The translations under genes were made by a program, and so were the position numbers. Of a stretch of 23,235 bases of DNA, positions 1 through 18,245 are shown piece by piece. The DNA is from a virus. The notes beneath the pieces are model-generated. The model did no database searches and was not told the DNA's origin. It saw only the letters and a list, made by a program, of their open reading frames with translations. Position 1 is the stretch's first letter, and each line of letters begins with the position of its first letter. The DNA lies in IMG/VR virus record IMGVR_UViG_3300017963_000760, positions 1 to 23,235 of that record, one strand, 5' to 3'.

Positions 1-86
1 CCGCCGCCAGCGCCCAATAATGTCGCCACCGCGATGACGACCGCTTGTGCGGAGAGCGTTGATTGTTTTTGTTCTGTCCCTGCCAT
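1..86 (-). CDS. Partial gene, N-terminus of a probable membrane protein
   Basis: An ATG at 86 (minus strand) lies about seven bases after a GAGGGG ribosome-binding site, 18 bases beyond the adaptor stop codon. The 28 visible residues start MAGTEQKQSTLSAQ and continue into a hydrophobic stretch (AVVIAVATLLGAGG), which suggests a transmembrane helix or signal anchor. The gene runs off the left edge. It is the next gene of the leftward virion operon, so a structural or lysis-related role is possible, but nothing in the visible part identifies it. An alternative ATG at 98 in another frame has poor Shine-Dalgarno spacing and a non-hydrophobic product. Confidence 0.55.
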   Translation of the reverse strand, partial: MAGTEQKQSTLSAQAVVIAVATLLGAGG

Positions 87-104
87 TCGACACCCCTCAT
101 TTCC

Positions 105-740
105 TCACCCCATCATTCGCAAGGAGTCTGCCATTACCCGCAATGGTTTCCCGCTCCATTTCAACTTCTGATCTTCTTTGAGGATGTCCGCCCTGAGCAG
201 GTTATAGCGCGACAGCCATTTCTGGGCTCTGTTGTCATCAAGGATGTAATCGAACCCTTCTGCCAGGGCACGAGCGAATAGGAGATCCGGTGCATTCACC
301 AGGATCTCATTACTGGTGTTGGAATCGCTCAATGCCGTGGGCTTGGCATAGTAGCTGATCTCGATGGTGGTGGTGTTATCACCGGATGGGGCCGGCCTCA
401 ACTCGATCTGCCCATCATGGACGCAGAAGAACTCGGGAACCCCTGCCGTGGTGCTGGGGTTCATCTTGTCAATCATATCGGGGGAGACTTCGGTGAGGGG
501 GAGGCGGTAGTTCTGGTAATCCCATTGGAGATTACGCATCCCGTTGTAATCGGTCGGCAAGACGATGAAGGCGTTGTCTGGTGTGGCGTAGGCGCGTTTC
601 TCGATCCAGCTTGCTCGCAACCACCGAGTGATGTCCGATTCAGCCAACGTGATCCAATCTACAACTTCGGTAGTCAGATCACTCCGGTCCATCCGGGCAA
701 GAATCGCCGCCTGCAGTTCCGCGTAGGTCGTGAACGCCAT
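105..740 (-). CDS. Head-tail adaptor protein (SU10 adaptor-like)
   Basis: The 211-aa product begins MAFTTYAELQAAILARMDR and continues with VVDWITLAESDITRWLRA. This is the typical N-terminus of the SU10-type adaptor family: short proteins that bind the portal ring and join it to the tail. The rest is a mix of beta segments and a C-terminal helix, as usual for the family. The ATG at 740 is preceded by a good GGAGAAGG site. Its first 62 bases overlap the end of the upstream methyltransferase gene, so translation is probably coupled. Position downstream of portal, scaffold and capsid agrees with an adaptor role. Family assignment is from recognition of the sequence pattern. Confidence 0.75.
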   Translation of the reverse strand: MAFTTYAELQAAILARMDRSDLTTEVVDWITLAESDITRWLRASWIEKRAYATPDNAFIVLPTDYNGMRNLQWDYQNYRLPLTEVSPDMIDKMNPSTTAGVPEFFCVHDGQIELRPAPSGDNTTTIEISYYAKPTALSDSNTSNEILVNAPDLLFARALAEGFDYILDDNRAQKWLSRYNLLRADILKEDQKLKWSGKPLRVMADSLRMMG

Positions 741-1266
741 CTACCTTCTCCAGTACAAACCAGAAATTGTCTCCGTCGTCCTGTTCGTAGAGTAGACGGA
801 AATTCCCGTGATACCAAGCTCTGTAGTCAGTCATGGCACCACTGCCGACTTGCTCATCATACGCCGACTGGTCGAGAAATGTCAGCGTCTCGATGCTGAT
901 CGCCCGGGTATGCCCGGGGTCACCCCACAGCCATGGCGACTTGAGGGACGGCACTGAGGCGATAAACAGACCACCCGGTTTCAGCAGACGGTGGTATTCA
1001 TTCCACTCCCGGAAGAACCCCTGCCAATCCCCCTGGCGACCCAGATGCTCCAATACCTCGTAGGCATGGATTTCATCGAAAGACGCATCGTCCAAAGGGA
1101 GCGGTAGCGCATTCAGGTTCCACAGTAGATCCGGGTCACATCGCGGGTCAACGTCAACGCGAAACGGGTCGTTGTATTCACTCGGCGTCCCGGTCGGTCG
1201 TAGTTTCTTTTTCGGATCGTTTCCCGCCCCGAGAACCAGTTCCCTTCGGTTGTTGCTTGCTGGCAT
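679..1266 (-). CDS. Class I SAM-dependent methyltransferase
   Basis: From the chosen ATG at 1266 the product is 195 aa. Near the N-terminus it shows the SAM-binding loop ELVLGAGND, then an acidic segment (FRVDVDPRCDPDLLWNLNALPLPL), DEIHAYEVLEHL (motif II/III region) and LLKPGGLFIASVPS (motif IV). This order is the usual one for small Rossmann-fold methyltransferases that modify sugars, small molecules or proteins; the substrate is unknown. The open frame extends to 1356, and ATGs at 1305 (GAGG six bases ahead) and 1266 (AGGGA eight bases ahead) are both possible. I chose 1266 because the domain starts just after it. Its start lies inside the FkbM gene and its end inside the adaptor gene. Confidence 0.75.
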   Translation of the reverse strand: MPASNNRRELVLGAGNDPKKKLRPTGTPSEYNDPFRVDVDPRCDPDLLWNLNALPLPLDDASFDEIHAYEVLEHLGRQGDWQGFFREWNEYHRLLKPGGLFIASVPSLKSPWLWGDPGHTRAISIETLTFLDQSAYDEQVGSGAMTDYRAWYHGNFRLLYEQDDGDNFWFVLEKVDGVHDLRGTAGGDSCPDGPE

Positions 1267-1858
1267 AGATGGTGTCCCTGATCCGTCCTTTCGTGGTGCT
1301 GACATCGGCCGCCTCATAGCCGAATTCCTGGAGAAATGCGGTCGGCGTGACACCATAACCTTCCTCCAAGATGATCATCGGCATGCACCGCTCGATGGTC
1401 TTGCGACCCCCTTCCAGAACTCGACCCTCGAATCCCTGGACATCAAGTTGGATCAGATCCACATCTTTGAGCCCCAGTTCGTCCAGGGTAATCTGCGGGA
1501 TGTCACCCGGGCCGCTGACTTCCCATGCACCACAGTTCGGCAGCCAGCCATGAAGGGCAACCGGGTCATTGCAGTCACCGAGAACCCCGTTGTGCGCCTC
1601 CACATTGCTCTGCATGCGGGTATTCTCGGTCAGGCAGTGGAAGTTCAGCGCATCCGGCTCAAACGTCACCACCTTGTCGAAATGCTTCGCGAACTCCAAG
1701 GGGTACATGCCGGCATTCCCGCCCGCCTGTACCACTGTGCGGCGTTTCTCGCACATCTCCACCGCTCGGCGCATGAAGAAGATGTCCTTCTGGATGGCGT
1801 CAAAGCATATTTCGTCGGAGGCTGGCCACAGTAGGCCGCCCTTTACGGTTGTGTCCAT
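1178..1858 (-). CDS. FkbM-family methyltransferase
   Basis: The 226-aa protein shows the FkbM pattern: SAM loop VVQAGGNAGMYPLEFAKHF (about 42-60), acidic end of strand 2 in VVTFEPD (63-69), ITLDELGL (123-130), and the signature LIQLDVQGFEGRVLEGG (135-151) followed by PMIILEE. FkbM enzymes usually O-methylate sugars or polyketides, often beside glycosyltransferases, and a glycosyltransferase gene lies 0.8 kb upstream in the same operon. The C-terminal 35 residues or so are basic and polar and overlap the next methyltransferase gene in another frame. I infer glycan methylation, possibly of virion or host surface sugars. The family call is firm; the substrate is not. Confidence 0.88.
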   Translation of the reverse strand: MDTTVKGGLLWPASDEICFDAIQKDIFFMRRAVEMCEKRRTVVQAGGNAGMYPLEFAKHFDKVVTFEPDALNFHCLTENTRMQSNVEAHNGVLGDCNDPVALHGWLPNCGAWEVSGPGDIPQITLDELGLKDVDLIQLDVQGFEGRVLEGGRKTIERCMPMIILEEGYGVTPTAFLQEFGYEAADVSTTKGRIRDTIYASKQQPKGTGSRGGKRSEKETTTDRDAE

Positions 1859-1861
1859 GAG

Positions 1862-2311
1862 TTACTCCGTGACGGCGAGTGTTCGTTGATGGGATCGACC
1901 GGCAGCGTTGATCTGCTGCTTCAGGGTTTGCGTACTCCAAGTCTTACCCGGGATGCCTATCAGTGCGGCCTGAGCCACAACACCGGGGCGCTCCACATCC
2001 GTATGCTCGGCCTTCTTGGATGTCTCTTTCCCGCGGTACATCCGGGACTTCTTTTTGTAACCGGTGACGGTCTTGGAGATGGGATGAACCTCAATCGATG
2101 CCGGATCGACCTCATAGCCTTCGGCATCGAAAAACCCGACCGGACCATCAACGAGATCAACGCTGTAGCCTTGTCGCTGGCTCAGATTCGAAAGCTGTTT
2201 GTGGTTCTCGAAGGTCATCTCGACCACATGGTAAAACCCGCCATTCGGGATGAAGAACCCGCAAGTGTTGTTCCTGCGATCCATCCCCATTTTGTAGACT
2301 TTGTATGGCAT
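1862..2311 (-). CDS. Hypothetical phage protein, 149 aa
   Basis: I do not recognise this gene. The ATG at 2311 forms a TGATG overlap with the stop of the preceding gene and has a strong AAAGGGGG site seven bases ahead; the frame itself runs further up to 2350 without support. The product starts MPYKVYKMGMDRRNNTCGFF. Its first half looks globular (FYHVVEMTFENHKQLSNL) and its second half is lysine-rich and probably partly disordered. It lies between the glycosyltransferase pair and the methyltransferases in the virion operon, so it may be a minor virion component or a helper of the modification genes. Confidence 0.65.
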   Translation of the reverse strand: MPYKVYKMGMDRRNNTCGFFIPNGGFYHVVEMTFENHKQLSNLSQRQGYSVDLVDGPVGFFDAEGYEVDPASIEVHPISKTVTGYKKKSRMYRGKETSKKAEHTDVERPGVVAQAALIGIPGKTWSTQTLKQQINAAGRSHQRTLAVTE

Positions 2312-2643
2312 CAAGTGCCCCCTTTCCGTTTTTTGGCCGCCGTTCGCCACAAGTAGTTGTTCAGATCGTCAAACCACTTGCGGAGCGCCTTATCGTCTTG
2401 AAAAATGCCTTGCTTCATCAGCTCGTGTGTCTGCAAGGCACTCAGTTCACCCAGCTTGTACATGCTTTCCTGGGTACCCTCCCCCATCCCCTGGCGTCCC
2501 ATTTTCTGAGCACGCTTGTTGGATTCGATTATCGACGTCACATCTTCCTTGGACTGCATGTGGACCGTCACCAGTCCCTTTCCTGCATCCTCGAGGACGA
2601 TTTCCTGATGACAGCCATCGCTATCGGGAAGGGTGAATTTCAT
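2311..2643 (-). CDS. Hypothetical phage protein, 110 aa
   Basis: I do not recognise this gene. The ATG at 2643 overlaps the glycosyltransferase stop (ATGA-type junction), so the two are probably translated together. The protein starts MKFTLPDSDGCHQEIVLEDA, has a predicted-looking helical middle rich in Q, E and M (KRAQKMGRQGMGEGTQESMY), and ends with a tryptophan-containing basic tail (LRKWFDDLNNYLWRTAAKKR). No catalytic motif is visible. Length and coding character fit a small phage accessory or structural protein. Confidence 0.6.
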   Translation of the reverse strand: MKFTLPDSDGCHQEIVLEDAGKGLVTVHMQSKEDVTSIIESNKRAQKMGRQGMGEGTQESMYKLGELSALQTHELMKQGIFQDDKALRKWFDDLNNYLWRTAAKKRKGGT

Positions 2644-3371
2644 CCCATGATCCTCGGCTTCATTTCGTCAGCACCCAGTTCATCCCATGTCGCTTCGCAA
2701 AGCGCGTTGTCGTACTCGAACGTGCCGATGTGGGAGACCTTCTGACTTGCGCCATGATCGATGTAGAGCTGGAAATCGGTGTGATGGGTCACCTTCTGCA
2801 TGAAGAACACATCTTCGCCCATCATCTCCGGTTTATCGACACCGGGTTTCTTCATCCATACGGTGTCAAACCAGGGCTGCGGGGTTTGTTCCAGCACCTC
2901 TCGGGTCATCAGAACCGCGCCGAATCCCGCGCTGGATGCCTCCACCAATCCCCGGGAATCCCGGTTGGTGGCGATCAGTTTGCCATCCATGTCCTTGGAA
3001 TTCGGCATGGAAGGTATCTTGCGCTTGACGTAGTTACACGCCACCAGTGGCTTTTGGTGCTTGAACAGCAAGTGGACAAGGTTCGGCGGAAACTTCATGT
3101 CGCTGTCAAGCCACAGAATGTGGGTAGCGCCACTCGCCAGTGCGCGCTCCGCCAATTCTTCCCGCTGGTACGCGATCAACGAGCCGCGCTCATTGATCAG
3201 GTTGTGCTTGAAATCATCGCTGAGGGGGTGATACCCCAATAGTTGTTGCATCGCCATAACAGACAACGCGAAGTCGGCCAGCCAGTAGTCCCCACTCGGG
3301 ATACATACGGCCAGGAAAACGGGCTCCCCCGAAGGGGAGCCCACCTTGCTGCTGGTATCAGCTACCGGCAT
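2640..3371 (-). CDS. Glycosyltransferase, GT-A fold (GT2-like)
   Basis: The 243-aa product has a nucleotide-sugar transferase architecture: VFLAVCIPSGDYWLADFALSV at the N-terminus, HILWLDSDMKFPPNLV (84-99) with the metal-binding DSD, KPLVACNYVKRK, and a late GEDVFFMQKV acidic segment typical of the acceptor site. The start is uncertain. The ATG at 3371 lies inside the last codons of the capsid gene, and a strong hairpin terminator sits in codons 10-19; a GTG at 3344 is an alternative. Because VFLAVCIPSGD belongs to the fold, the true start cannot be far downstream. Neighbouring methyltransferases suggest a small glycan-modifying set, acting on virion proteins or host surface sugars by inference. 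Confidence 0.8.
   Translation of the reverse strand: MPVADTSSKVGSPSGEPVFLAVCIPSGDYWLADFALSVMAMQQLLGYHPLSDDFKHNLINERGSLIAYQREELAERALASGATHILWLDSDMKFPPNLVHLLFKHQKPLVACNYVKRKIPSMPNSKDMDGKLIATNRDSRGLVEASSAGFGAVLMTREVLEQTPQPWFDTVWMKKPGVDKPEMMGEDVFFMQKVTHHTDFQLYIDHGASQKVSHIGTFEYDNALCEATWDELGADEMKPRIMG
3314..3342 (-). terminator. Strong intrinsic terminator/hairpin after the capsid gene
   Basis: On the minus strand GGGCTCCCC is followed by TTCG and then GGGGAGCCC: a perfect 9-bp stem closed as C(UUCG)G, the extra-stable tetraloop. GTTTTCC follows. It begins 15 bases beyond the capsid stop codon. The T tract is short, so partial rather than full termination is likely. This would give high capsid mRNA levels and lower downstream expression. 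It lies inside the first codons of the glycosyltransferase frame. Confidence 0.7.
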
Positions 3372-4281
3372 GGGTCAGGATGCCGCTGGAGTTCTCAGCA
3401 CGGCATTCCAAGGTGGCCTCACACTGGAGCATCTTCTTCTGGGTGTCACCGGTCTTGGACAGGGTGACGACCTCCATGGGTCGCAGTTCTGCCAGCTTGT
3501 AGTGATCCATCTGAAGGCACTTCAGGGTCAGGGTGGCGTCGAAGCGGTCGGGAACGATCCGCTGGACACCGAAATCACCATCCCAGATATCGACCGAGGT
3601 GACGAACTTCTTCTTCTCAGCATCGTGGTCGAAGCTGTAGGAAGTCGAAGTCGAGCCGGCCAGGGCCGAAACCAGACGCTTGGAGGTGCCGTTACCGAAG
3701 ATCAGATCCGGATCACCGCCTTCATCCCAGCAGTCTTCCAGGATGGCGTTGACATCGGCCGCGGTCAGCGCCGTGGTGATGGTGGTGGTGTTGGTGGTCA
3801 CGAAACCGGTCACGCCATTGGTCTGACGGGCAACGGTAGTGGAGCCGGCGACCGCTTGGGTGTTCTGCAGCAGCGCGGTCTCGATGTCACGCTTGATTTC
3901 CTTGCCGTGCAGAATGACCCGATAGGCCAGTTCCTTGCCCATTCCGGCTTTGTTCACGGCGTCCTGGGTGCCCGACACAGCAACCGCTTTCTGGTTAATC
4001 TGACAGGTGTTGGTCACACGAGTCAGGGTGGTCGGGGTGATCAGGCTTGCCTCGTTACCTTCCACCACCACGTTGGTGGCGTCAGCGGCGGCCAGGGAGT
4101 GGGTCAGCCATTCGTGGGTGACCGCGGTCGCCTTGGTGCGACCGATGCCACTGTAGAACGGGGTTTCGGTGGGGGAGATGTTGGTGATGAAATCACTCAG
4201 ATCCTCCCGGTTGTGCAGGCCGACACCATCGGTGTCGCCGGAAAGGGTGTACGATTCACCCGCGCCAGTTAGGTATGCCAT
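3358..4281 (-). CDS. Major capsid protein (SU10-type, HK97 fold)
   Basis: The 307-aa protein begins MAYLTGAGESYTLSGDTDGV and then has LSDFITNISPTETPFYSGIG. This is the characteristic start of SU10-type major capsid proteins (the DUF5309-like group), in which a short N-arm leads to 'DxIxxIsPtdTPf'. The middle carries ILEDCWDEGGDPDLIFGN, usual for this family's A-domain region, and the end has LRPMEVVTLSKTGD. No long N-terminal scaffold domain is present, in line with a separate scaffold gene just upstream. It should form the icosahedral shell. A strong hairpin follows the gene, consistent with high expression. Start and length agree with the family. Confidence 0.88.
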   Translation of the reverse strand: MAYLTGAGESYTLSGDTDGVGLHNREDLSDFITNISPTETPFYSGIGRTKATAVTHEWLTHSLAAADATNVVVEGNEASLITPTTLTRVTNTCQINQKAVAVSGTQDAVNKAGMGKELAYRVILHGKEIKRDIETALLQNTQAVAGSTTVARQTNGVTGFVTTNTTTITTALTAADVNAILEDCWDEGGDPDLIFGNGTSKRLVSALAGSTSTSYSFDHDAEKKKFVTSVDIWDGDFGVQRIVPDRFDATLTLKCLQMDHYKLAELRPMEVVTLSKTGDTQKKMLQCEATLECRAENSSGILTHAGS

Positions 4282-4291
4282 TGTTCAATCC

Positions 4292-5395
4292 TCACAGAGA
4301 GAGTTTTGCTTGCAACGCCTCAGCCCAGGCGTCATCCGTTTGGAGTTGTTTGGCCTTGGCAAAAGTCTTCTTTTGCTTGCTGACAGAAGCATCCTGTTTG
4401 CTTTTACGCACTCCAGGTGGGACGAACTTCGGTTTGGTTTTCAGCTTCTTGGCTTTCGGATTGGCCTTGCCCTGCATCTGGTCGAACATCATCGCCTTTC
4501 GAGCGATTACATAGACCCGATGATCGACAACGCTGTTGACTTCCTCATCGGTCGCCCCAAGCGTCTTCATGTAGGACTTGACATCAGCAATACCCTTCTC
4601 TCGCTTCGTATCGTCCGACCATTCCGGCACTGCATCCACCAGCATCTCATGCTGGCTTTTCGCAACGCCCTTCAGATACTCTTGCATTTCCGATTGCTGC
4701 TTCTCGGCTACCGCGGCGCGCTGCTCTCGGATCTTCGTCTTGAAAGACTCGATCCGGGCAAAACGCTGCTGCAACTGTTCCCGCGTCATCAGAAACTCAG
4801 TCGGGTCATTTTGCTGCAATTCCTGCCAGTCAACCGACTGGTAGTCAGCCAAAACCTCCTGCTCCATCGCAGAAACCAAGTCGTCCGCCTCTTGTGCTTT
4901 CTGCTGCAAGGCTTGCAACTGCTCAGCACGGTTGGCCTCGAACTCCTTCCGCTCTCCAGCCAAGGCCTGAGAGCGTTTCGTCAACGTGCCGTCCAGTTGA
5001 TGGGTTTTCAGCAGTTCCGCAAGGGTAGCCTCGCCTTCCTCGCCGTCCATCTTGGTCTGGACTTTGATGCCACCCGTCAAGGTGTCCAAGTCCGTCTCAA
5101 GAGCTTCGGCCAGTTCATCAAGCGATCCCGGCATCCAGCGTTCATCTGCAGCGGGCTCGTCGCCCTCACCTGCATCTTCCTCGTCACGTTCGGCCTCGTC
5201 CGTGGCCTCAGCTTCGGTCTCCTGAAGGGTGTCATCGCCATCGGCGGTAGACAATTCCTCATCCTCTGCTGCTGTGGCCTGCTCGTCCTTTGGTGGCTGA
5301 CCCTCGTCAGCGCCGCCGAGAAACGCAGCAAGCTCATCAATCATATCCATGCCGTCTGATTCGACCACGCCTTGGGCGGTAGTGGCTTCATTCAT
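4292..5395 (-). CDS. Capsid scaffolding protein
   Basis: From the ATG at 5395 the product is 367 aa. It has an acidic, low-complexity N-terminal part (many D/E/A up to about 110), then a long alpha-helical coiled-coil region rich in Q/E/K (LAELLKTHQLDGTLTKRSQA and following). It ends in a basic C-terminus (KAKKLKTKPKFVPPGVRKS, then DDAWAEALQAKLSL). This layout and the position between portal and capsid are those of scaffold proteins, which bind capsid subunits through a basic C-terminal element. The frame extends upstream to 5437, but the 5395 start gives the usual short overlap with the preceding stop (5390-5388). Confidence 0.82.
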   Translation of the reverse strand: MNEATTAQGVVESDGMDMIDELAAFLGGADEGQPPKDEQATAAEDEELSTADGDDTLQETEAEATDEAERDEEDAGEGDEPAADERWMPGSLDELAEALETDLDTLTGGIKVQTKMDGEEGEATLAELLKTHQLDGTLTKRSQALAGERKEFEANRAEQLQALQQKAQEADDLVSAMEQEVLADYQSVDWQELQQNDPTEFLMTREQLQQRFARIESFKTKIREQRAAVAEKQQSEMQEYLKGVAKSQHEMLVDAVPEWSDDTKREKGIADVKSYMKTLGATDEEVNSVVDHRVYVIARKAMMFDQMQGKANPKAKKLKTKPKFVPPGVRKSKQDASVSKQKKTFAKAKQLQTDDAWAEALQAKLSL

Positions 5396-5657
5396 CGTTA
5401 TCATCCCGTTCGTGTTCTTGCATCGCAATGTAGCCATCGTCCATTCGGATCCGCAATTCCCGCCTTACTGCGGAGATCGCGTCGATTTGACGCTTGGCCT
5501 CGTAAATCTCGCCCCGTTGGTTGGGCTTTGCTGAAACAATAGCCCCTAACCACTGTTCAATCAAACCGTCGAAGATTTCGTTCAACAGTTCGTCTTTCAA
5601 CCGGTCCTCGGCTTCCCGGCCGCGCTGGACCCGCTGAGTAATAGTCAGTTCGCTCAT
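5388..5657 (-). CDS. Hypothetical protein between portal and scaffold, 89 aa
   Basis: This is a small, charged, mostly helical protein (MSELTITQRVQRGREAEDRL then KDELLNEIFDGLIEQW). Its start overlaps the portal stop by four bases (ATGA) and its end overlaps the scaffold start. Genes of this size and position recur in podovirus head modules, but I cannot assign a function. No membrane segment or metal-binding motif is seen. The middle segment RGEIYEAKRQIDAI looks like an amphipathic helix. Confidence 0.7.
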   Translation of the reverse strand: MSELTITQRVQRGREAEDRLKDELLNEIFDGLIEQWLGAIVSAKPNQRGEIYEAKRQIDAISAVRRELRIRMDDGYIAMQEHERDDNDE

Positions 5658-7693
5658 TGGTTATCTCCCGCGCTGGCCACCGCCTCGGTTTCAGACCTTG
5701 CCGCATCGACGGCGCGATCCAGAGCGTTATCAACCGCATCCTGTTCCGCTTTGCCGATATCGAGTCGCAATCCGGCCTCCTTGATCGCCACTTCCCGTTC
5801 CTTGATCGCCAGTTCGCGCAAGCTGATCTCGTAATCCTGCTGCTGCTTTTGCGCCTTGAGCTGGGCTTCCTGCTGAGCGGCCTGGGCCTGCGCCATGACC
5901 ATCTTTTCCTCGGGACTCGGCTCAGGCGGTGTCGGTTCAACCGTGGACGGATCGGTGAAGAACATCTCCGGGCTCTTGAGGCCTGAGTTCTCCACGATCT
6001 TGGTCAGGGTGTTGTAGATGTTCTGACCGCTGGCCAATGGTGTGCCGGCCATCAAGGCCTCTTTTTGGATGCCCAAGATGGTCATCAGGCTCCCCAGTAG
6101 TTTGTCGGAGTTGTCGGTACCCAGACCCACCACCACGGTCATGTTCGTCCGTTCACGCCACTCTGACGGGTTCACAGGGGTCCAGGTGCCACGCAGTTGG
6201 ATGACCTTCTGCTTGTCTTGGTTCTGCAGCAACAGGCGATGGATGCCGAGCATCAGACGTTTGACGCCTTCGCCGTACAGACGGGCGATCAGTTCAAGCC
6301 GCTGAGCCGACGCATCCATGATCCGATTGATGCCGGAAGCAGTCTTGTTCAGGGAGTCGGCGTCGATGCCCTGGTTGTATCGGGTCATGCCCGTCCTGTT
6401 CTCCTTGATGGAGTCCAGGTATTCGAGCATGCCGAAAGCGTGCCCGTTGAATGGGGTCACCGGCACCGGTGTCACCATACCGGGTTGCGACATACCAATC
6501 GGGGATCCCGGGGTGGAGTCCAACAGTTGCGCGATATCGACCTCGCCCTGAACGTATCCCATCCTGACGTTGTTGATCAGGTACAGGTTGTCCATGATGT
6601 TCCGTGTCAGCATGGACTTGTTCAACTGGATGTCCATAGCCTGATCCGCGGCGGAACGGCCGAAGAACCGGTGGGTCATGGGGATCGGGGTGATAGCCTC
6701 GAAGGGAACGTAATCGACCTCGTCGTTCTCGATCACATGGTAGTCATTCACCAGCAGGATCCGACGCAGTTCGGCGTACCCGTCCCCGTCATAGTCCACC
6801 CGCTTGTAGCACTCGGTCAGTTTGACCGGTCGGGTGGAGGGATCCACGCTGTTGTCGTCATCGGATTGGGAAGACCGGCTGCTGGAGATGTCGCGGTACC
6901 GTTCGTCTTCCTCGATGCTATCGTATTCGTCGTCCGTGTAGCCGGCGTAGGTCTCCAGGCCGGAGATGTCATAACCCCGGGCCTTCAGATCGGACAGGGT
7001 GGTTTCGGTCTCATGGGCGCAGAACGGAACCTGCTGGAGGGAGAGGTCCGGCCATGTGATGTTGATCAGGAATTCTTCGGGCGGCACGTTGACGATCCGC
7101 ACCTGTCCGTTCATCCGGGTGGTTTTAACCTTGACATCGTAAACCTCGGTCTCCACCTCCATGCCGGTCATCGGGTCCGGAGCCGTTGCGAATGTCCGGG
7201 TCTGTTCGACTACTTCCGCACCATCCTCGGCCAAGATCGTCATCAACTCCTGTTCGGTCAGTCCTGTGTAGGACTCGGTGACGATTTCCTCCTTTTCCTC
7301 CCAGTAATACTTGACGATGCCGTTCTTGCTCAGCAGGCCGTCTTTGAACCATGTGTAGAGGATGTCGAACCCGGGGTTCTCCTTGTAGAACACATGGTTC
7401 ACATAGTCCGTTTCCTGCTTTGCCGCTTCCTCGTCTTCGACACCCACCGGGTCGAAGAACACCGCTCGTTCACTGGCCACGAATGGCTTGAGGACTTGAG
7501 GGAGCATGCCTTCGATGGTGTCCGCCACCTCAGTCGTGACGATCTTCGACCGACCCTTTTGCTCGTTACCGTAAGGCTCCCCAAGGTAATACTTGAGCGC
7601 CTTCGCCCTGGCAAAGTTGAGTTCGTCATAGGACTTACCCGTTGACGAATCGATGTCACGGCGCAGCGCGGCAACCAGTTCGGAGTCATTCAT
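5654..7693 (-). CDS. Portal protein (P22/SU10-like)
   Basis: The 679-aa product has the length and layout of P22-like portals. It has an N-terminal domain with YYLGEPYGNEQKGRSKIVTT, a middle section with PIPMTHRFFGRSAADQAMDI and LNKTASGINRIMDASAQRLE (the region that forms the clip/stem and channel helices), and a Q/E-rich coiled-coil C-terminal barrel of about 110 residues. The dodecameric portal sits at one capsid vertex, is the docking site for the terminase and carries the tail. It overlaps the terminase gene by four bases upstream and the 89-aa gene by four bases downstream. Nothing looks broken. Confidence 0.9.
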   Translation of the reverse strand: MNDSELVAALRRDIDSSTGKSYDELNFARAKALKYYLGEPYGNEQKGRSKIVTTEVADTIEGMLPQVLKPFVASERAVFFDPVGVEDEEAAKQETDYVNHVFYKENPGFDILYTWFKDGLLSKNGIVKYYWEEKEEIVTESYTGLTEQELMTILAEDGAEVVEQTRTFATAPDPMTGMEVETEVYDVKVKTTRMNGQVRIVNVPPEEFLINITWPDLSLQQVPFCAHETETTLSDLKARGYDISGLETYAGYTDDEYDSIEEDERYRDISSSRSSQSDDDNSVDPSTRPVKLTECYKRVDYDGDGYAELRRILLVNDYHVIENDEVDYVPFEAITPIPMTHRFFGRSAADQAMDIQLNKSMLTRNIMDNLYLINNVRMGYVQGEVDIAQLLDSTPGSPIGMSQPGMVTPVPVTPFNGHAFGMLEYLDSIKENRTGMTRYNQGIDADSLNKTASGINRIMDASAQRLELIARLYGEGVKRLMLGIHRLLLQNQDKQKVIQLRGTWTPVNPSEWRERTNMTVVVGLGTDNSDKLLGSLMTILGIQKEALMAGTPLASGQNIYNTLTKIVENSGLKSPEMFFTDPSTVEPTPPEPSPEEKMVMAQAQAAQQEAQLKAQKQQQDYEISLRELAIKEREVAIKEAGLRLDIGKAEQDAVDNALDRAVDAARSETEAVASAGDNQ

Positions 7694-9213
7694 ACAAACA
7701 TATCCATGTTGCGTTGCGGGATATATCCCGAGGATCTGCGGTCATTGACGGCGAAGGTTAGCATAAACGAATCCGACAGGTCGGGCGACCGCCCGGATTT
7801 CTTCTTGATATCCTGCTTGCCGGCTACCTTGATCTTCCCGTTTGATGTGTGGTCATACCACGGCAGCGTCAGTTCACCGATCAGGTCGTCACAGTCGTCT
7901 GGCATCGAACAGTCCCGGGCCTCGAACCAGTCGCGCATGCGAAAATACAGGTCATCACGCAGCCGCATGAACCGGTCACCGATCCCGGGTGCCTCGCTCA
8001 CGTTCACCCCTTTCACGGGCAGCCCGTTCTCCTTGAGCCGGTCCACCACCCCCGCCCCCAGGCCGATGCTGTCCACCACGATGATGTCCGGTCGCTCGCT
8101 GGGCGGCAAGGCGTTATACATCGCGGTCACCTTCCCCGCGGTCTGCATCAGATCCTTGCCGCGCCACCACAGCGGTTTCTCAAGCAGCGTGTTACCCTGC
8201 CGCTTGCTCAGGCTCGTTCGATCCAGGCCGAACCGGGCAACGTCCAGCCCCCAGATGATCTTCGAACTGGCCGCCCGTTCCACATCCCGGGTCACCGCTT
8301 CCTCGACCAGTCCCAGCGAGATGACATTGTTTTCACCGCTCTTGGGGAACTCTCCCTTGACCTCCACCCGGGTAACATCGTCGTCTTCGCCATACTTGTC
8401 CGCAATCCGTTGGTACACCTGGGGGTCCACGCCTTCAACCGTCCGCGAGTCAATCGTCTTCGTGTCCCAGAACCCCCGATCCTTGTGGAAGCAATCATAG
8501 AATCTCCCGGTCGTCTGCCGCGGGTTGGATATGGCGATCCACAGCCGCAGCGGTGCCAAGTCCGTAAAGAAGCCCTCGCTCACGTTCCAGATCGGATCAT
8601 CGATACCCGAGGCCTCATCAAACGTCAACATCATGGCAATCTGGCTGTGTGCGCCGGCGAACGCATCCGGGTTCTCCGCGCTCCACGACTGACCTTCAAC
8701 GTAGTAATACTGGGTGTCGATCTTGAGCTGTTCTTCCACCATGGTCTTGAACCAGTTCGCCGGGCGCAGGCTCATGGACGACTTCTCGAACCAATGCCGG
8801 TTCAGCATCAGCGTGTGCCACTTACCCAGTTCCGCCATGGTCCTCGAGCGCAACTGGGTCTCCGTGTTCGCCGTCACTATCCCGGTACCCCCGATCCAGC
8901 AGGACGCCATCCACAGGTTCAGCATGCTCAGCAGCGCCGATTTACCCGGGCCGCGGCCGGAGCTTCGCGCCAGATACAGCGGCCGGGGCGGCAACCCCAT
9001 CCGCTGCAGTTCAAGATCCTGCTGCAGATGCTCCCCGATCTGCTGCAAGTCCTCCCGCTGCCATGTGCGCGGCCCCTCGAACCGGGCCAGCGGGGTGTTC
9101 GCCACACCCCATGGGAACACGTAGTTCACAAACCCTTCCGGGTCGTACTTGTACGTCAGGATGTTCGTCAGAAGCTCCTGCTCCTGGGCCGATGGCTCAG
9201 TCTTGATGCTCAA
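7690..9213 (-). CDS. terL: Terminase large subunit
   Basis: The 507-aa DNA-packaging motor has both expected domains. The ATPase shows Walker A SGRGPGKS (about 85-92) and Walker B MMLTFDE (194-200), with the coupling segment IAISNPRQTTGRFYD after it. The RuvC-like nuclease shows GLDVARFG (322-329, D324), IIVVDSIGLGAG (377-388, D381) and SPDLSDSFMLTFA (476-488, D478/D481), which supply the metal-binding acids. It cuts concatemers and drives DNA through the portal. Its start lies inside the small-subunit gene (17-base overlap) and its end overlaps the portal start by four bases. Confidence 0.95.
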   Translation of the reverse strand: MSIKTEPSAQEQELLTNILTYKYDPEGFVNYVFPWGVANTPLARFEGPRTWQREDLQQIGEHLQQDLELQRMGLPPRPLYLARSSGRGPGKSALLSMLNLWMASCWIGGTGIVTANTETQLRSRTMAELGKWHTLMLNRHWFEKSSMSLRPANWFKTMVEEQLKIDTQYYYVEGQSWSAENPDAFAGAHSQIAMMLTFDEASGIDDPIWNVSEGFFTDLAPLRLWIAISNPRQTTGRFYDCFHKDRGFWDTKTIDSRTVEGVDPQVYQRIADKYGEDDDVTRVEVKGEFPKSGENNVISLGLVEEAVTRDVERAASSKIIWGLDVARFGLDRTSLSKRQGNTLLEKPLWWRGKDLMQTAGKVTAMYNALPPSERPDIIVVDSIGLGAGVVDRLKENGLPVKGVNVSEAPGIGDRFMRLRDDLYFRMRDWFEARDCSMPDDCDDLIGELTLPWYDHTSNGKIKVAGKQDIKKKSGRSPDLSDSFMLTFAVNDRRSSGYIPQRNMDMFV

Positions 9214-9688
9214 TCACCACCCCCATCCGGTCGTTGTGCAGCATCGCCGCCCGTTCTTCTGCCGCCCGCATGGCATCGGTGATATCCACGGTATGGTTCA
9301 CATCGATCTGCTTCGATTCCCCATACCGCTTCCTGTTCCACACCCCCAGCAACCATTTCCGGGTGTTGATCCGCAGGGTGGACCGCTGGACATCCTCCAT
9401 CCCCTCACCGTCGGCAATGTCCAGCATCTCATCTTCAATCTTCTCAGCACCGGCTTCCCGGGCCTCGTAGTACCGGGCCTTACGCTGCGGATCGGCAAAT
9501 ATCCACCGCCGAAACCGCTCTATGTCGGGCATGTGGGCATCCCGGCAGATGGATGTCAGAGTCTCGCCGGCCGTACACCGCTCCAGGGCATGCTCCCACA
9601 CCCACTCCGTGTAAAACTCGCCACCGTCCTTCTTGGGCGGCTGTAGCCAGTGGGGGACACCGGTCGTCTGGATCAGCTCGCTACCCAT
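9197..9688 (-). CDS. terS: Terminase small subunit (Sf6/HTH type)
   Basis: The 163-aa protein has a DNA-binding half: ALERCTAGETLTSICRDAH (about 34-52), MPDIERFRRWIFADPQRKAR, then YYEAREAGAEKIEDEMLDIA. This matches the Sf6-like small terminase pattern of 'g.sl..ic.d.gmp....vyrWl..d..f...Y..Ar'. A central RINTRKWLLGVWNRKRYG follows, the usual oligomerisation-linked segment. The C-terminus is short and charged. It recognises the packaging start and regulates TerL. It sits directly ahead of TerL, with the peptidase gene overlapping its start by 16 bases. Confidence 0.9.
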   Translation of the reverse strand: MGSELIQTTGVPHWLQPPKKDGGEFYTEWVWEHALERCTAGETLTSICRDAHMPDIERFRRWIFADPQRKARYYEAREAGAEKIEDEMLDIADGEGMEDVQRSTLRINTRKWLLGVWNRKRYGESKQIDVNHTVDITDAMRAAEERAAMLHNDRMGVVIEHQD

Positions 9689-10850: not shown

Positions 10851-11063
10851 ATGGATACGGTACAGATCAACAGCAGTGAGATTTCCCTGGACGACTATGG
10901 CACGGGTCAGGTCAATGTGCTGTTATCCGCCACCATGCAAGAACTGCACGATATGGGGATCAAGGGTTGTCCGATGGGCCGTGGCGCGACTATGGAGGCA
11001 GCCGTTGCCGATTTGATTCGGCGTATAGAGCAAGAATCCGCCGTTACCGTGAAGTTTGTTTGA
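10851..11063 (+). CDS. Hypothetical early protein, 70 aa
   Basis: This is the first rightward gene, with an ideal AAGGAG site seven bases ahead of the ATG. The product starts MDTVQINSSEISLDDYGTGQ and ends MEAAVADLIRRIEQESAVTV, a beta-rich start and a helical end. I do not recognise the family. As the promoter-proximal gene of an operon of tiny genes it is probably made early and in quantity. Confidence 0.75.
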   Translation: MDTVQINSSEISLDDYGTGQVNVLLSATMQELHDMGIKGCPMGRGATMEAAVADLIRRIEQESAVTVKFV

Positions 11064-11068
11064 TACGC

Positions 11069-11087
11069 AAAGGAACCGAGACAATGA
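11069..11087 (+). promoter_or_regulatory. Repeated translation-start module, copy 1
   Basis: AAAGGAACCGAGACAATGA is found here and identically at 11479-11497. It contains the ribosome site AAAGGAA, a fixed spacer and the ATG. A shorter match, AAGGAACCGACCAAATGA, precedes the gene at 12634. Confidence 0.6.
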
Positions 11088-11278
11088 GCGCACAAGTCCA
11101 CAGATTCCGCGATACGGTTGCCGCGTGGCTGGGAACCGGGGCAACCGTTTACATGACACCCGACCGGGCCCGGGCGCTGGGTGAAGCACTGGTGCAGTTT
11201 GCCGATGATGTCGAAGCGGTGAAGTTCCAGGATTCCCAGCTACCGACGTTCAACCTTTCATTCGATGATGAGGATTGA
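11084..11278 (+). CDS. Hypothetical early protein, 64 aa
   Basis: The ATG at 11084 follows AAAGGAACCGAGACA; the longer frame from 10967 overlaps the preceding gene without a ribosome site and is rejected. The product starts MSAQVHRFRDTVAAWLGTGA and continues TVYMTPDRARALGEALVQFA, then ends in an acidic tail (FDDED). It resembles small phage proteins of unknown role in which a helix carries RARALGEAL. No catalytic motif is seen. Confidence 0.75.
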   Translation: MSAQVHRFRDTVAAWLGTGATVYMTPDRARALGEALVQFADDVEAVKFQDSQLPTFNLSFDDED

Positions 11279-11281
11279 CAC

Positions 11282-11404
11282 ATGCACCTTCTAAACCCTG
11301 AATTCCTTATCCCTTTTTCCCTGGCTTGCTACTTCCTGAGCCGTGGCGCGGTCATGCTGTGGCGGGATCTGGTGGACTGGTCTGAGAAACATGGGAGGAG
11401 ATGA
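11282..11404 (+). CDS. Small membrane protein, 40 aa
   Basis: This short frame starts four bases after the preceding stop, with GAGG about eight bases before the ATG. It encodes MHLLNPEFLIPFSLACYFLS and continues RGAVMLWRDLVDWSEKHGRR. The hydrophobic N-terminal half is long enough for one membrane helix and the C-terminus is basic and amphipathic. Tight spacing supports translation. Function unknown; small membrane proteins are frequent in phage early regions. Confidence 0.5.
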   Translation: MHLLNPEFLIPFSLACYFLSRGAVMLWRDLVDWSEKHGRR

Positions 11405-11407
11405 GAA

Positions 11408-11497
11408 CTGTATACCGTCACAGATCATTATTTAGTTGCCGCCTTGTGGGCAGACCTTACCGATGACGACAGACTGAGAAAGGAACCGAGACAATGA
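11408..11497 (+). CDS. Possible 29-aa protein with CTG start, or a gene remnant
   Basis: In frame after the preceding stop, an open stretch reads (L)YTVTDHYLVAALWADLTDD and ends DRLRKEPRQ at a TGA that overlaps the next ATG (ATGA). The amino-acid sequence looks coding and recalls the start of a common phage protein type. The only start candidates are CTG at 11408, seven bases after GGAGGAG, or an inner TTG. It may use a non-AUG start, be read through from the upstream gene, or be a decayed gene that lost its ATG. Confidence 0.3.
   Translation: MYTVTDHYLVAALWADLTDDDRLRKEPRQ
11479..11497 (+). promoter_or_regulatory. Repeated translation-start module, copy 2
   Basis: Identical over 19 bases to 11069-11087, including AAAGGAA, the spacer and ATGA. 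It drives the 228-aa gene. The identity between two unrelated genes suggests duplication or selection of the leader. Confidence 0.6.
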
Positions 11498-12180
11498 AAA
11501 CTATTGAACAACTGAAAGCCGAACAAGAGAAGCAACTAGCCGAGCTAGAGTATAGACTGGCGATAGCTAAACAATGCCCGGTCACCCCGGATCGCGTTAT
11601 AAAAGTCAGCACGGGGGAAGCGGCATGGGTTACCTATAAGGTGAAAGGCATCCGGGGTGCCCTGGAGATCCTGCGCCAGTTTGATCCTGTGGTGCCGTTC
11701 TCCGAAGCACGAGATGGATGCCTGTATCTGCAGCCCGAGGAACTGATGAAAGAAGGCCTAAAGGAAAAGGCGGAAGGGTTCTATGCGGTGCGGCTCGATG
11801 TAGACCAAGGCGAAGGCTTTGGACCGTCTGCGAAACTGTCATTCTACGCCCGGATTCCCGAGGCCCATGGTGGCGGCGTGTTGGTGCGGGTGCAGTGCGA
11901 CATTGAAGGCCCGGGGTATATCGGCATGTATCACGGTCTGGGTGCGCAATTGGACATCATTCGGGACCATGGGGGCCGGATAATCGACCACAAGTGGTCC
12001 CGCAACCCGGATGCCGGAGCCATAGCGGACAAGGTCATCAAGTGGGGCAGCGGCAGTGATACGTCCGCCCGGTTCAGTTACCTGTTTTGCGCCGATCAGG
12101 CTGAAGATTGGCCCGGCAAAGACCAGTCCCACGCCATGGGCCAACTGGTGAACTTGGCTGACATTCTGAAAGAGGGCTAA
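11494..12180 (+). CDS. Hypothetical phage protein, 228 aa
   Basis: This is the largest rightward gene, with a strong leader (AAAGGAACCGAGACA). The N-terminal 30 residues form a probable coiled coil (MKTIEQLKAEQEKQLAELEY). The rest is mixed alpha/beta with TGEAAWVTYKVKGIRGALEI, a middle glycine-rich part (YARIPEAHGGGVLVRVQCDI) and a C-terminal segment with SARFSYLFCADQAEDW. I know of no function; it appears to be a soluble cytoplasmic protein. Position among early genes suggests a host- or regulation-related role, which is only inference. Confidence 0.75.
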   Translation: MKTIEQLKAEQEKQLAELEYRLAIAKQCPVTPDRVIKVSTGEAAWVTYKVKGIRGALEILRQFDPVVPFSEARDGCLYLQPEELMKEGLKEKAEGFYAVRLDVDQGEGFGPSAKLSFYARIPEAHGGGVLVRVQCDIEGPGYIGMYHGLGAQLDIIRDHGGRIIDHKWSRNPDAGAIADKVIKWGSGSDTSARFSYLFCADQAEDWPGKDQSHAMGQLVNLADILKEG

Positions 12181-12184
12181 CCCA

Positions 12185-12346
12185 ATGAACAACAACGACC
12201 TGACAAAAATTCTCGAAACACACAGCGCATGGATAAAAGGCATCGATGGCGGAAAGTGCCGGGCTGAATTCGCCAGGGTGCTCGCCATTTATCACCGCGA
12301 CGGAACGAAAGCGGCCAAAGAGGAAGCTGAGGATTTTGGAAAATGA
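12185..12346 (+). CDS. Small protein resembling the head of pentapeptide-repeat phage proteins, 53 aa
   Basis: The product starts MNNNDLTKILETHSAWIKGI and continues DGGKCRAEFARVLAIYHRDG. The first 25 residues match the pattern 'l..IL..H..Wl.g..gG.rA' found at the start of many phage pentapeptide-repeat proteins, but the repeats are missing; instead a short charged helix follows. It may be a truncated or stand-alone version of that head domain. It starts five bases after the preceding stop and overlaps the next ATG (ATGA). No strong ribosome site is present, so coupling is probable. Confidence 0.55.
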   Translation: MNNNDLTKILETHSAWIKGIDGGKCRAEFARVLAIYHRDGTKAAKEEAEDFGK

Positions 12347-12621
12347 GAAAGCAAAGCAAAGCGTTTTTAGCTGGTGAACCGGTCCCCTCGTTTGTGAAAA
12401 GAGGGGCCGGTGCTATCGGTTGCTGGGTGTGCGGATCCGCCAAAGATTCGCATGTAGTCCAGCGGAATATTAAATCCGCGATTTGTCGATCCAAAAACCC
12501 CGCATTGCGGATTGAATGCTTCACCATGTCATCTATTGAAGACCGGCCCGGGTTTACTCCCGAAGTGCGCTATACCGTGGTATGCCGGCTTTATGAGAAT
12601 CCAGAAACCTATCAGCCATAA
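12343..12621 (+). CDS. Hypothetical Cys-containing protein, 92 aa
   Basis: The ATG overlaps the preceding TGA. The product has a CWVC pair (27-30) and further cysteines at 48, 59 and 81, so a zinc site is possible but incomplete by eye. The first third is basic (MRKQSKAFLAGEPVPSFVKR) and the end is YTVVCRLYENPETYQP. I do not recognise the family. A strong RNA hairpin (12379-12410) lies within its early codons. Confidence 0.6.
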   Translation: MRKQSKAFLAGEPVPSFVKRGAGAIGCWVCGSAKDSHVVQRNIKSAICRSKNPALRIECFTMSSIEDRPGFTPEVRYTVVCRLYENPETYQP

Positions 12622-12633
12622 GGAACCGACCAA

Positions 12634-12927
12634 ATGACCCACAATTACCGCTGCACCCGGGCCCGCTGTCGCAAGCGGATCAGCCTGAAGCGACCCTTGG
12701 CCAGCTATGCCCGGGAAAGACGCTGCAAGGCCTGCGGTGGCCGGCTGAGCCATGATCCGGCCGTAAAACGCCAGACGCGCCGCCAGACATGCCGATGTGA
12801 TGGGGCATGGTTCCCCCATCGCCGGGGCTCCGTACCCCTGTGCCGCCACCATGAAGGGGAAGTGACCGAACAGGACGCCCGGGACTGGTTGGAGCGGATA
12901 CAGGCCAGTGGGGGCTGCCATGGGTGA
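12634..12927 (+). CDS. Zinc-binding phage protein with two Cys/His clusters, 97 aa
   Basis: The product has C7 and C12 with C31 and C34 (YRCTRARCRKR and RRCKACGGRLS), a zinc-ribbon-like cluster. A second cluster CRCDGAWFPHRRGS with C70, H72 and H73 (LCRHH) follows. Small basic proteins with this double pattern occur in many phages without a known role; nucleic-acid binding is a reasonable guess. AAGGAACCGACCAA precedes the ATG. Its 3' end overlaps the next small gene by eight bases. Confidence 0.75.
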   Translation: MTHNYRCTRARCRKRISLKRPLASYARERRCKACGGRLSHDPAVKRQTRRQTCRCDGAWFPHRRGSVPLCRHHEGEVTEQDARDWLERIQASGGCHG

Positions 12928-13033
12928 CGTGCTGCAAAGTGCCGCCTACTGGCTGGGCTGGCTGGTGTCGTTCCTGGCAACGGCTGCCTGTATCCGGGTG
13001 GCAACCATCATACTGACTAGGGTGAAGAAATGA
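12920..13033 (+). CDS. Small one-helix membrane protein, 37 aa
   Basis: The ATG lies inside the end of the zinc-protein gene and the stop overlaps the ATG of the XRE gene (ATGA). The product MGDVLQSAAYWLGWLVSFLA continues TAACIRVATIILTRVKK: a single hydrophobic span with a positively charged end, which predicts the C-terminus on the cytoplasmic side. Function unknown. Confidence 0.5.
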   Translation: MGDVLQSAAYWLGWLVSFLATAACIRVATIILTRVKK

Positions 13034-13260
13034 CTCCCGAGAACATCAAGAAATGGCGCGACCGGCTGGGACTGTCTCAGCCGCAGATGGCCAGATACAT
13101 CGGCATCCCGGAATCCACCTATATTAAATGGGAGACCGGTCGCCGTGAGCCACCAGCGATAGCTGAGAGGGCTTTTGAACTGTTGGGCATGCTAGAGGCT
13201 TCCGGGCATCCCCATGCCGCCAGACGCAAGCAGGAAGCGAAGGAGGACAACGATGGATAG
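13030..13260 (+). CDS. XRE/Cro-type helix-turn-helix regulator
   Basis: The 76-aa protein has a clear HTH: IKKWRDRLGLSQPQMARYIG (6-25) and IPESTYIKWETGRREPP (26-42), matching the XRE pattern 'R..lglSq..mA..lGi...ty..wE.G.r.P'. The C-terminus is basic (HAARRKQEAKED). It most likely binds operators in the phage control region; the 13-bp repeats at the rightward promoter are candidates. GGGTGAAGAA lies just before the ATG. It overlaps both neighbours and belongs to the rightward operon, allowing autoregulation. Confidence 0.85.
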   Translation: MTPENIKKWRDRLGLSQPQMARYIGIPESTYIKWETGRREPPAIAERAFELLGMLEASGHPHAARRKQEAKEDNDG

Positions 13261-13405
13261 ATGGGCCGAAGTGGTTGTCGGGTGTGCGCTGTTCGCCGTG
13301 CTCACGTGGGCTGTGGTTTACTGGATCGATGACACGATCACATGGCGCGACGATTCAGCGGAACACTATCAAAAGATGATTGATGTCTTGAGGGAAACAC
13401 AATGA
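13253..13405 (+). CDS. Small membrane-anchored protein, 50 aa
   Basis: The ATG at 13253 has a near-perfect AAGGAGGA site. The product starts MDRWAEVVVGCALFAVLTWA with VVYWIDD next, giving one N-terminal transmembrane helix. It is followed by a charged, helical tail (DDSAEHYQKMIDVLRETQ), probably cytoplasmic or periplasmic. It ends in an ATGA overlap with the next gene. Function unknown; accessory membrane proteins are common near phage early regulators. Confidence 0.7.
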   Translation: MDRWAEVVVGCALFAVLTWAVVYWIDDTITWRDDSAEHYQKMIDVLRETQ

Positions 13406-13626
13406 CAAAGCTCTATAGATGGTTGAAAGGGGGGACATGGTTTCAGGTTCTCGATGACTCCTACATGCCCGGCTGGCACTACTGGGTAAAAGATCCGAAG
13501 GGGCGGGTGTACATCAAGACAGAACATTACACGCCGTGGGGGGTTGCGCGGGTTCGATCCGTGATCATGGGCATGCTCGCGGCGTGTGGGTTCCTACTCG
13601 TGCTGGTAGGGGCTAGTACACCGTAA
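13402..13626 (+). CDS. Small protein with C-terminal membrane helix, 74 aa
   Basis: The start overlaps the preceding stop. The first 50 residues are aromatic-rich and soluble-looking (WFQVLDDSYMPGWHYWVKDP), and the end is a hydrophobic span (VIMGMLAACGFLLVLVGAS). This gives a tail-anchored arrangement. I do not recognise it. Confidence 0.65.
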   Translation: MTKLYRWLKGGTWFQVLDDSYMPGWHYWVKDPKGRVYIKTEHYTPWGVARVRSVIMGMLAACGFLLVLVGASTP

Positions 13627-13637
13627 GGGGGTTTCCT

Positions 13638-14036
13638 GTGGACAAACGACCGATATCAATTCCCGACATCAACAGGTCCATCAACCGGTTGTTCAACTGG
13701 GTGCCGATCTCCGCGTATCAGGGGTACCGCAGTTTCACGGCTTGTCTGAATAAAGGGGCCAAATGCTATGACTTTGCCCGGCACAAGGCCCGATGGATCC
13801 TTGATAAAGATCTTGCCCGTGAAGCCGACCTGGAATATCTGTTTTGCCGGTATGCGTTCTCTGGTGAGGGGGTAGAACCCCATGCCGTGCTGGCGATCTA
13901 TGTTGGCGGCGTTGACGATGATCCGCTGATCTTGGATAACATTGTTGACCGGCTCTTGCCGCTGTCAGAACGCGACGATCTCACAGAAGATGCCCACATC
14001 CCCTACTGGGACATTTCACCGGAGGAACACGACTGA
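13638..14036 (+). CDS. Hypothetical phage protein, 132 aa (GTG start)
   Basis: The gene starts with GTG at 13638 after AAGGGGG. The product includes GYRSFTACLNKGAKCYDFAR and HKARWILDKDLAREADLEYL followed by FCRYAF, then an acidic C-terminus (DLTEDAHIPYWDISPEEHD). Mixed alpha/beta with several tryptophans and cysteines, no membrane span. Unknown function. The stop forms TGATG with the next gene. Confidence 0.7.
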   Translation: MDKRPISIPDINRSINRLFNWVPISAYQGYRSFTACLNKGAKCYDFARHKARWILDKDLAREADLEYLFCRYAFSGEGVEPHAVLAIYVGGVDDDPLILDNIVDRLLPLSERDDLTEDAHIPYWDISPEEHD

Positions 14037-18240: not shown

Positions 18241-18245
18241 ATTCA

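Follow-up and report, generated by a model that had tools for sequence, protein, structure and literature searches.

Why should genes for three putative glycan-modifying enzymes lie inside the virion module of a phage, between the gene for its capsid protein and the gene for its adaptor? The question is posed by a single-contig record of an uncultured bacterial virus, 23,235 bases long (IMG/VR record IMGVR_UViG_3300017963_000760; this whole stretch of DNA is called the window below), in which a glycosyltransferase (GT), an FkbM-family methyltransferase (FkbM), and a second methyltransferase (MT) dependent on S-adenosylmethionine (SAM) are encoded downstream of an SU10-type major capsid protein (MCP). 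An earlier note on this DNA proposed that the set adds and methylates sugars on virion proteins or, as an alternative, alters glycans of the host surface to block superinfection. Comparison with relatives supports the first proposal and lends little support to the second. We consider it probable that the interval is a virion-glycosylation cassette with methylation of the sugar; the acceptor, the sugar, and the position of the methyl group we infer. This reading is favored because the GT persists in the virion module over wide divergence, because a related GT and an MT of the same family recur behind another family of coat proteins, and because there are precedents.

On the minus strand of the window, the genes run in the order small terminase, large terminase, portal, p89, scaffold, MCP, GT, p110, p162, FkbM, MT, and SU10 adaptor. 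The MCP gene (3358..4281; SU10_MCP, E=6.4e-79; phrog_1328, E=4.3e-85) overlaps the gene for the GT-A glycosyltransferase (2640..3371; 243 amino acids, phrog_1574 family) by 14 nucleotides (nt), and the latter overlaps p110 (2311..2643; phrog_3982, E=1.5e-7) by 4 nt. The p110 and p162 genes meet at TGATG, with 1 nt in common, when p162 is counted from the ATG at 2311, a start that is backed by homology and gives a protein of 149 amino acids; the listed frame (1862..2350) opens at a GTG at 2350, upstream of that ATG. After a gap of 3 nt comes FkbM (1178..1858; 226 amino acids), followed by MT (679..1356). The listed MT start at 1356 gives an overlap of 179 nt with FkbM, whereas a start near 1266, backed by alignment to the MT of a related contig (L019), gives one of 89 nt; the stretch that encodes the C-terminal tail of FkbM also encodes, in another frame, the beginning of MT, which would fit an MT that arrived later behind FkbM. 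The MT gene in turn overlaps the adaptor gene, the downstream boundary of the cassette (105..740; PF24175 (SU10_adaptor), E=2.5e-29; phrog_2941, E=9e-39), by 62 nt. Thus, the five overlapping or nearly touching open reading frames (ORFs) described in the earlier note between the capsid and adaptor genes were borne out in content and coordinates, and all lie on the minus strand. Only two other minus-strand ORFs of at least 50 amino acids occur at 679-3371 (50 and 66 amino acids), inside FkbM and p162. An assembly accident is unlikely, since two other IMG/VR contigs, L002 and L003, show the same arrangement with 99.98-99.99% nucleotide identity over 9,284 and 10,040 nt, respectively. Promoter-like sites in positions 1-5700 numbered 3, compared to 2.2 in shuffled sequence, and terminator-like sites 7, compared to 5.4, about the shuffled level. 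These counts, together with the overlapping or nearly touching genes, make co-transcription, and hence co-expression, of the cassette with the head genes likely.

The identities of the three enzymes were confirmed by profile searches and, for the GT, also by a structural model and a fold search. The GT scored 27.3 bits against the Anp1 profile, just short of the 28.8-bit cut-off, and matched phrog_34859, annotated as glycosyltransferase (E=3.4e-7), and phrog_1574, a family without an assigned function in the library searched (E=1.1e-14). Residues invariant among 25 aligned sequences include D89 and D91 of a DxD motif, G185-E186-D187 (GED), D205, S209, and H214; DxD is a motif for binding of metal and nucleotide sugar, and the acidic residues are of the catalytic type. 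An AlphaFold2 model built from 22 sequences had a mean pLDDT (predicted local distance difference test score) of 90.9. The closest solved structure to this model was STIV A197 (Z 19.5, root-mean-square deviation 2.3, 170 residues aligned, 17% identity), which was also a significant profile match (E=5.6e-5), and the next were the GT domain of LH3, Mnn9, mimivirus R699, and ColGalT1, with LH3 and ColGalT1 being collagen-modifying enzymes. Going by the titles of these entries, we take several of them to act on proteins or protein-linked glycans. The window GT is, by this model, predicted to have a GT-A fold. The sixth match among viral predicted structures was a 788-amino-acid protein named 'Methyltransferase FkbM', which may be a GT–FkbM fusion. 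Through these results phrog_1574 gains a candidate role in virion glycosylation.

The placement of the GT was followed across relatives in a scan that used the GT alignment as its only query, and the best 80 of 561 confirmed loci were kept. The GT lay between the MCP and adaptor genes in 67 of the 80, and in 10 more the contig ended within the same arrangement (2 cut after MCP-p110-GT and 8 cut before GT-adaptor). Microcystis phage Mel-JY34 (PP438425), a relative in culture, also has its GT between these two genes. Two had the GT ahead of the portal gene (L026, 5995-6687; L050, 1-675), positions to which it has moved inside the module rather than out of it, and a single locus (L059) showed no virion gene of the searched set. 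The earlier note had held that the occurrence of these genes outside structural modules in close relatives would count against it; for the GT in viral contigs this refuting outcome did not arise, as one of the 80 loci lacked a virion gene of the set and the two pre-portal cases are still within the module. When SU10-type modules were found through the MCP alone, 7 of 80 contained the GT, which shows that the GT is optional. On an MCP tree of 135 rows (70 with and 65 without the GT), GT presence required 5 changes, and all four lineages of the window's clade carry it. L098, L178, L179, and L197-L200, whose contigs were already represented by another locus, were dropped before the counts, and the tree omitted, in addition, L002, L003, L005, L006, L011, MCPs shorter than 270 amino acids, and identical MCPs. 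GT distances over 73 loci correlated with those of MCP (r 0.875), p110 (r 0.908), and the adaptor (r 0.898) about as strongly as the virion genes did among themselves (r 0.847-0.872). Partial correlations given the portal, over 41 loci, were 0.61 for GT and p110, 0.52 for GT and MCP, and 0.12 for GT and adaptor, values that are suggestive at most because neighboring genes share history. Among bacterial genome records there were 22 GT loci, four of which were viewed by eye: L204-L206 show MCP-p110-GT-adaptor, L207 and L219 have a terminase match, and 17, for example in Methylobacterium and Caballeronia, lack any virion gene of the set. Thus, the wider GT family is not confined to virion modules.

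A second family of coat proteins came to light among loci found with the MT. In those that held both MT and GT, a P22-type coat gene stood ahead in 30 of 39; its identity was checked by Pfam in five examples (E 1.8e-25 to 3e-34), and the two GTs checked from P22-coat phages match phrog_1574. A GT-only scan seeded with 13 GTs of such phages, from which the best 80 of 584 loci were kept (these contain 73 different GT sequences, and 20 of the loci are shared with the MT scan), placed a P22-type MCP upstream of the GT in 77 of 80, with a median gap of 44 nt. One of the remaining loci, L312, was scored as lacking an upstream MCP, though a P22-type match overlaps its long GT ORF. An MT lay downstream of the GT in 73 of 80 at any distance in the locus, within 1 kb in 71 (the two extra loci, L330 and L344, have long overlapping ORFs), and within 150 nt in 66. 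Five of the seven loci without an MT are on contigs that end 217 nt or less from the GT, and L354 and L355 truly lack one. Coat genes assigned to two different Pfam families, PF17236 and PF11651, are thus each followed by a cassette of this kind, with MCP, GT, and MT in that order. The P22 coat protein is thought to have the HK97 fold. The same fold is proposed for the SU10 coat protein in the part of the source consulted (PMC9509320), so the two kinds of coat protein may be distant kin. Five loci of the MT scan (L230, L235, L237, L240, L255) also have an SU10-type adaptor downstream. Two of them carry an ORF between MT and adaptor, which in L237 (5540-6397) matches radical SAM and SPASM families and in L230 (4865-5713) resembles the L237 ORF by eye; this ORF is possibly a third modification enzyme.

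Turning to the methyltransferases, FkbM scored 63.1 bits against TIGR01444 (cut-off 37.7; E=3.8e-17) and 38.6 bits against PF05050 (cut-off 22.7; E=1.5e-9), matched phrog_8156 (E=4.5e-29), and found a solved relative in 2py6, 'Methyltransferase FkbM' (E=5.8e-4 with a two-sequence profile). By these profile matches it is assigned to the FkbM methyltransferase family (TIGR01444/PF05050), the namesakes of which mostly O-methylate sugars or small molecules. The second enzyme is a class I SAM methyltransferase of the Methyltransf_11 type (PF08241, E=1e-6, above cut-off). It is 55% identical to the MT of L019, and the MTs that follow P22-type coat genes are members of its family; in a quick tree of 79 MT rows, the window and L019 (there as L228) were joined with a support of 94, as a pair not firmly placed. 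Gene content varies within the window's clade: L018 has GT and FkbM, L019 has GT and MT, L007 has GT, p162, and FkbM, and the window, L002, and L003 have GT, p162, FkbM, and MT. FkbM and MT are therefore gained or lost separately in this clade, and on the reading favored here the capsid-linked GT is the more stable element, to which one or another methyltransferase is added.

From an MT-only scan, the best 80 of 227 confirmed loci were kept, and a GT match lay within 150 nt of the MT in 34 of the 80, or in 18 of 36 clusters at 70% identity; of the 451 other ORFs that these loci contain, 32 had a GT match that close. In one count over 77 loci, one locus was scored as lacking an MT. Annotated phage records yielded 29 with an FkbM match and, with the L019 MT as query, none with an MT; in one such record, MW202462, the GT lies between MCP and adaptor, with FkbM ~9 kb away. 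In L201 (701-1944) and L202 (1447-2696), contigs that also carry the capsid-linked GT, FkbM adjoins an ORF that resembles, by eye, another sugar-transferase family.

The earlier note had grouped the two proteins of unassigned function, p110 and p162, with the glycan set, and for p110 this grouping did not hold. This gene was present in 147 of the 148 MCP-adaptor intervals that were complete, irrespective of the GT, and is a core gene of SU10-type virion modules outside the modification set. A search for a solved relative of p110 found none (best E=0.22). In the SU10 genome, gp10, numbered between the MCP gp9 and the adaptor gp11, has a predicted immunoglobulin-like fold according to the part of the source consulted (PMC9509320). 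The p162 protein was found in four loci, all within the window's clade; family profile searches gave no match to it, and its structural model was poor (pLDDT 43.7). The modification genes are GT, FkbM, and MT.

Systems of this kind are already known, and mycobacteriophage Corndog and the chlorovirus PBCV-1 are close precedents, the latter with a capsid fold that differs from that of the window phage. In tailed phages, virion glycosylation is documented, in the excerpts available, for a few mycobacteriophages. The virion operon of Corndog (cluster O) encodes an O-methyltransferase and three GTs (gp35-gp38), for which a role in modifying the capsid was suggested in 2015 (PMC4351075). Glycosylation of its capsid and tail proteins was reported later, with gp38 named as essential for that of the capsid (PMC12363180, citing Freeman et al. 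2023). The window has the same architecture, GT and methyltransferase genes within a virion operon, as seen here from genes alone. The likeness drawn here is one of gene content and architecture. The Corndog genes lie between portal and protease, the phage is a long-tailed mycobacteriophage with more GTs, and the available parts of these sources do not name its methyltransferase FkbM. Protein A064R of PBCV-1 combines a sugar methyltransferase with two rhamnosyltransferases, all at work in the synthesis of the capsid glycan (PMC7019647). It resembles the window in pairing a viral GT with a sugar methyltransferase, there acting on the glycan of the major capsid protein, and differs, as far as the source was available, in being a single three-domain protein of a green-algal virus, with a glycan that involves several further virus-encoded GTs. 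The nearest solved fold to the window GT, STIV A197, is a viral GT proposed to glycosylate the capsid protein, and the major capsid protein of STIV is glycosylated (PMC10551542); this virus, however, is archaeal, the identity in the fold alignment is low, as given above, and the available part of that paper mentions no methyltransferase. The phage families phrog_1574 and phrog_8156 include the window GT and FkbM, respectively, and their family records do not contain the MCP-GT-MT linkage.

The presence of similar enzyme genes beside the capsid gene in many other environmental phages suggests that such viruses decorate their virions with methylated sugars. In the scheme that we propose, the GT-A enzyme would be made alongside the head proteins and, in the cytoplasm, would use a nucleotide sugar of the host to glycosylate a virion protein, most probably the MCP. 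FkbM and the second methyltransferase would then use SAM to O-methylate this first sugar or any further sugars attached to it, yielding a particle that bears methylated glycans. The benefit to the phage might be shielding, stability, or adsorption.

Several results weigh against this scheme. In SU10-type modules, FkbM or MT occurred in the MCP-adaptor interval of 5 of 80 GT-bearing and 0 of 68 GT-less loci; as all five loci belong to the window's clade and L002 and L003 are near-copies, they represent few independent events. Among contigs 10 kb or longer, FkbM was not enriched in those with the GT (2 of 40, compared to 1 of 34 without it), and 17 of the 21 loci found with FkbM had no virion gene of the set. 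Set against the refuting condition of the earlier note, the methyltransferases gave a mixed outcome, the MT having a GT match beside it in the 34 loci noted above and no GT match within 150 nt in the other 46. Three of these 46 are from the window's own clade, with the GT a few genes away, and one cluster of 22 loci lies elsewhere. Inspection by eye showed further GT-like genes next to the MT in L246, L288, and L297, and the loci without an adjacent GT match include L233 (terL-FkbM-MT-portal) and L236 (terL-MT-portal). Moreover, the 80 loci kept in each scan are the most similar ones rather than a random sample, and conserved synteny can be explained by descent alone. Two further observations concern the same loci: 12 phage contigs (L181, L183-L193), all among the 17 FkbM loci without a virion gene of the set, have two adjacent FkbM genes, and in L233 (4466-5606), from a phage whose portal is of the SU10 type, FkbM and MT are neighbors flanked by the terminase and portal genes.

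A comparison of GT-bearing and GT-less phages did not yield an acceptor site. Up to 66 GT-bearing and 16 GT-less rows of one MCP subclade were set against each other at the conserved columns of six virion proteins, with fewer rows for scaffold, portal, and p89. The GT-less subclade, in clades drawn from the MCP tree itself, had lost 8 of 146 conserved column classes in the MCP, 2 of these 8 being Ser/Thr, and 1 of 56 in the scaffold, with none lost in p110, adaptor, portal, or p89. When the MCP was re-aligned with further GT-less rows, L014 kept 7 of the 8 columns and L016, on a long branch, had lost 5. We dropped the MCP columns as a guide to the acceptor site, given the low share of Ser/Thr, the origin of the clades, and the disagreement between L014 and L016.

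Were the enzymes to act instead on the host surface, adding or methylating sugars on lipopolysaccharide, capsule, or their precursors and so blocking adsorption by other phages (superinfection exclusion or serotype change), linkage to capsid genes in two coat families would be unexpected. We regard this second proposal of the earlier note as unlikely, and much less likely than virion glycosylation, even though FkbM relatives in other phage contigs lie among sugar-like genes (by eye) outside virion modules and three GT-less SU10-type phages have a Wzy_C (O-antigen ligase family) protein in the MCP-adaptor interval. These Wzy_C proteins (L101:7609-9372, L110:5460-7151, L116:3225-4985; 563-587 amino acids, with between 8 and 13 hydrophobic segments) may represent a further kind of glycan enzyme encoded in that position. 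Serotype conversion of the gtr type involves a membrane-anchored GT (GtrB) encoded beside a flippase gene (GtrA). In the window, GT, FkbM, and MT are predicted to be soluble, and none of the seven proteins of the adaptor-MCP interval, the stretch examined for this feature, is strongly hydrophobic in any segment (the maximum Kyte-Doolittle mean over 19 residues was 1.36, reached in the GT). The genes stand among virion genes, and PF00589, the tyrosine-type and only integrase family searched, had 0 matches in six clade records, which may be fragments. The GT might, on the other hand, glycosylate a virion protein while FkbM and MT methylate virion proteins themselves, on side chains or at the termini, in parallel rather than in sequence. 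The substrate of neither methyltransferase can be read from sequence, and L236 and L302 carry MT beside the portal gene with no GT match in the locus; yet MT adjoins GT far more often than other ORFs do, and FkbM-named enzymes act mostly on sugars and small molecules. With A064R of PBCV-1 uniting GT and sugar methylation in one protein in the source cited above (PMC7019647), we rate direct protein methylation as quite unlikely.

It is improbable that the enzymes share no function and are unrelated late-operon cargo in a permissive insertion site. HNH endonucleases, tail genes, and the Wzy_C proteins do occur in the MCP-adaptor interval of relatives, but the family, place, and gene order of the GT persist over wide divergence and recur with another coat family, and its catalytic-type residues are invariant in the 25 sequences. 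Least credible, and in our estimate very improbable, is hypermodification of DNA, in which the GT would glycosylate modified phage bases, as some phage GTs are reported to do in the part of the source consulted (PMC12619734, citing Pyle et al. 2024); the genes are in the virion module, not with replication genes, and the thymidylate synthase/hydroxymethylase family PF00303 was found in 0 of the six clade records, possible fragments as noted. Virion glycosylation with methylation of the sugar thus remains the reading that we prefer.

The rest of the head module occupies 4292..9688 on the minus strand, with scaffold at 4292-5437, p89 at 5388-5657, portal at 5654-7693, large terminase at 7690-9213 (named from an annotated homolog in L014), and small terminase at 9197-9688. 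Beyond it, a block of small plus-strand ORFs (10851-14194), one encoding an XRE-like helix-turn-helix protein by eye (13030-13260), lies between two minus-strand blocks. The window also encodes a primase-polymerase/DUF3987 protein of 852 amino acids (14191-16749) and a small N6 DNA methylase-like protein (17758-18264; PF02384, barely over cut-off).

The open-licence literature searched, as far as its text was available, held no description of an MCP-GT-MT cassette in SU10-type or P22-coat phages. We put forward tentatively, as a generalization slightly more apt to fail than to hold, that the capsid-linked GT with an exchangeable MT or FkbM is a standing system for coating the heads of tailed phages with methylated sugars, found with two coat families and in large groups of uncultured phages. 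The cassette supplies gene pairs for reconstitution in vitro. If it recurs in SU10-type and P22-coat phages as proposed, many environmental phages would bear modifications on their capsids, with possible effects on how stable the particles are, how antibodies or other defences recognize them, how they adsorb, and how virion proteins are identified by mass spectrometry. The standing system, if real, would amount to a general layer of phage particle chemistry that has gone largely undescribed and that mycobacteriophages and algal viruses arrived at independently.

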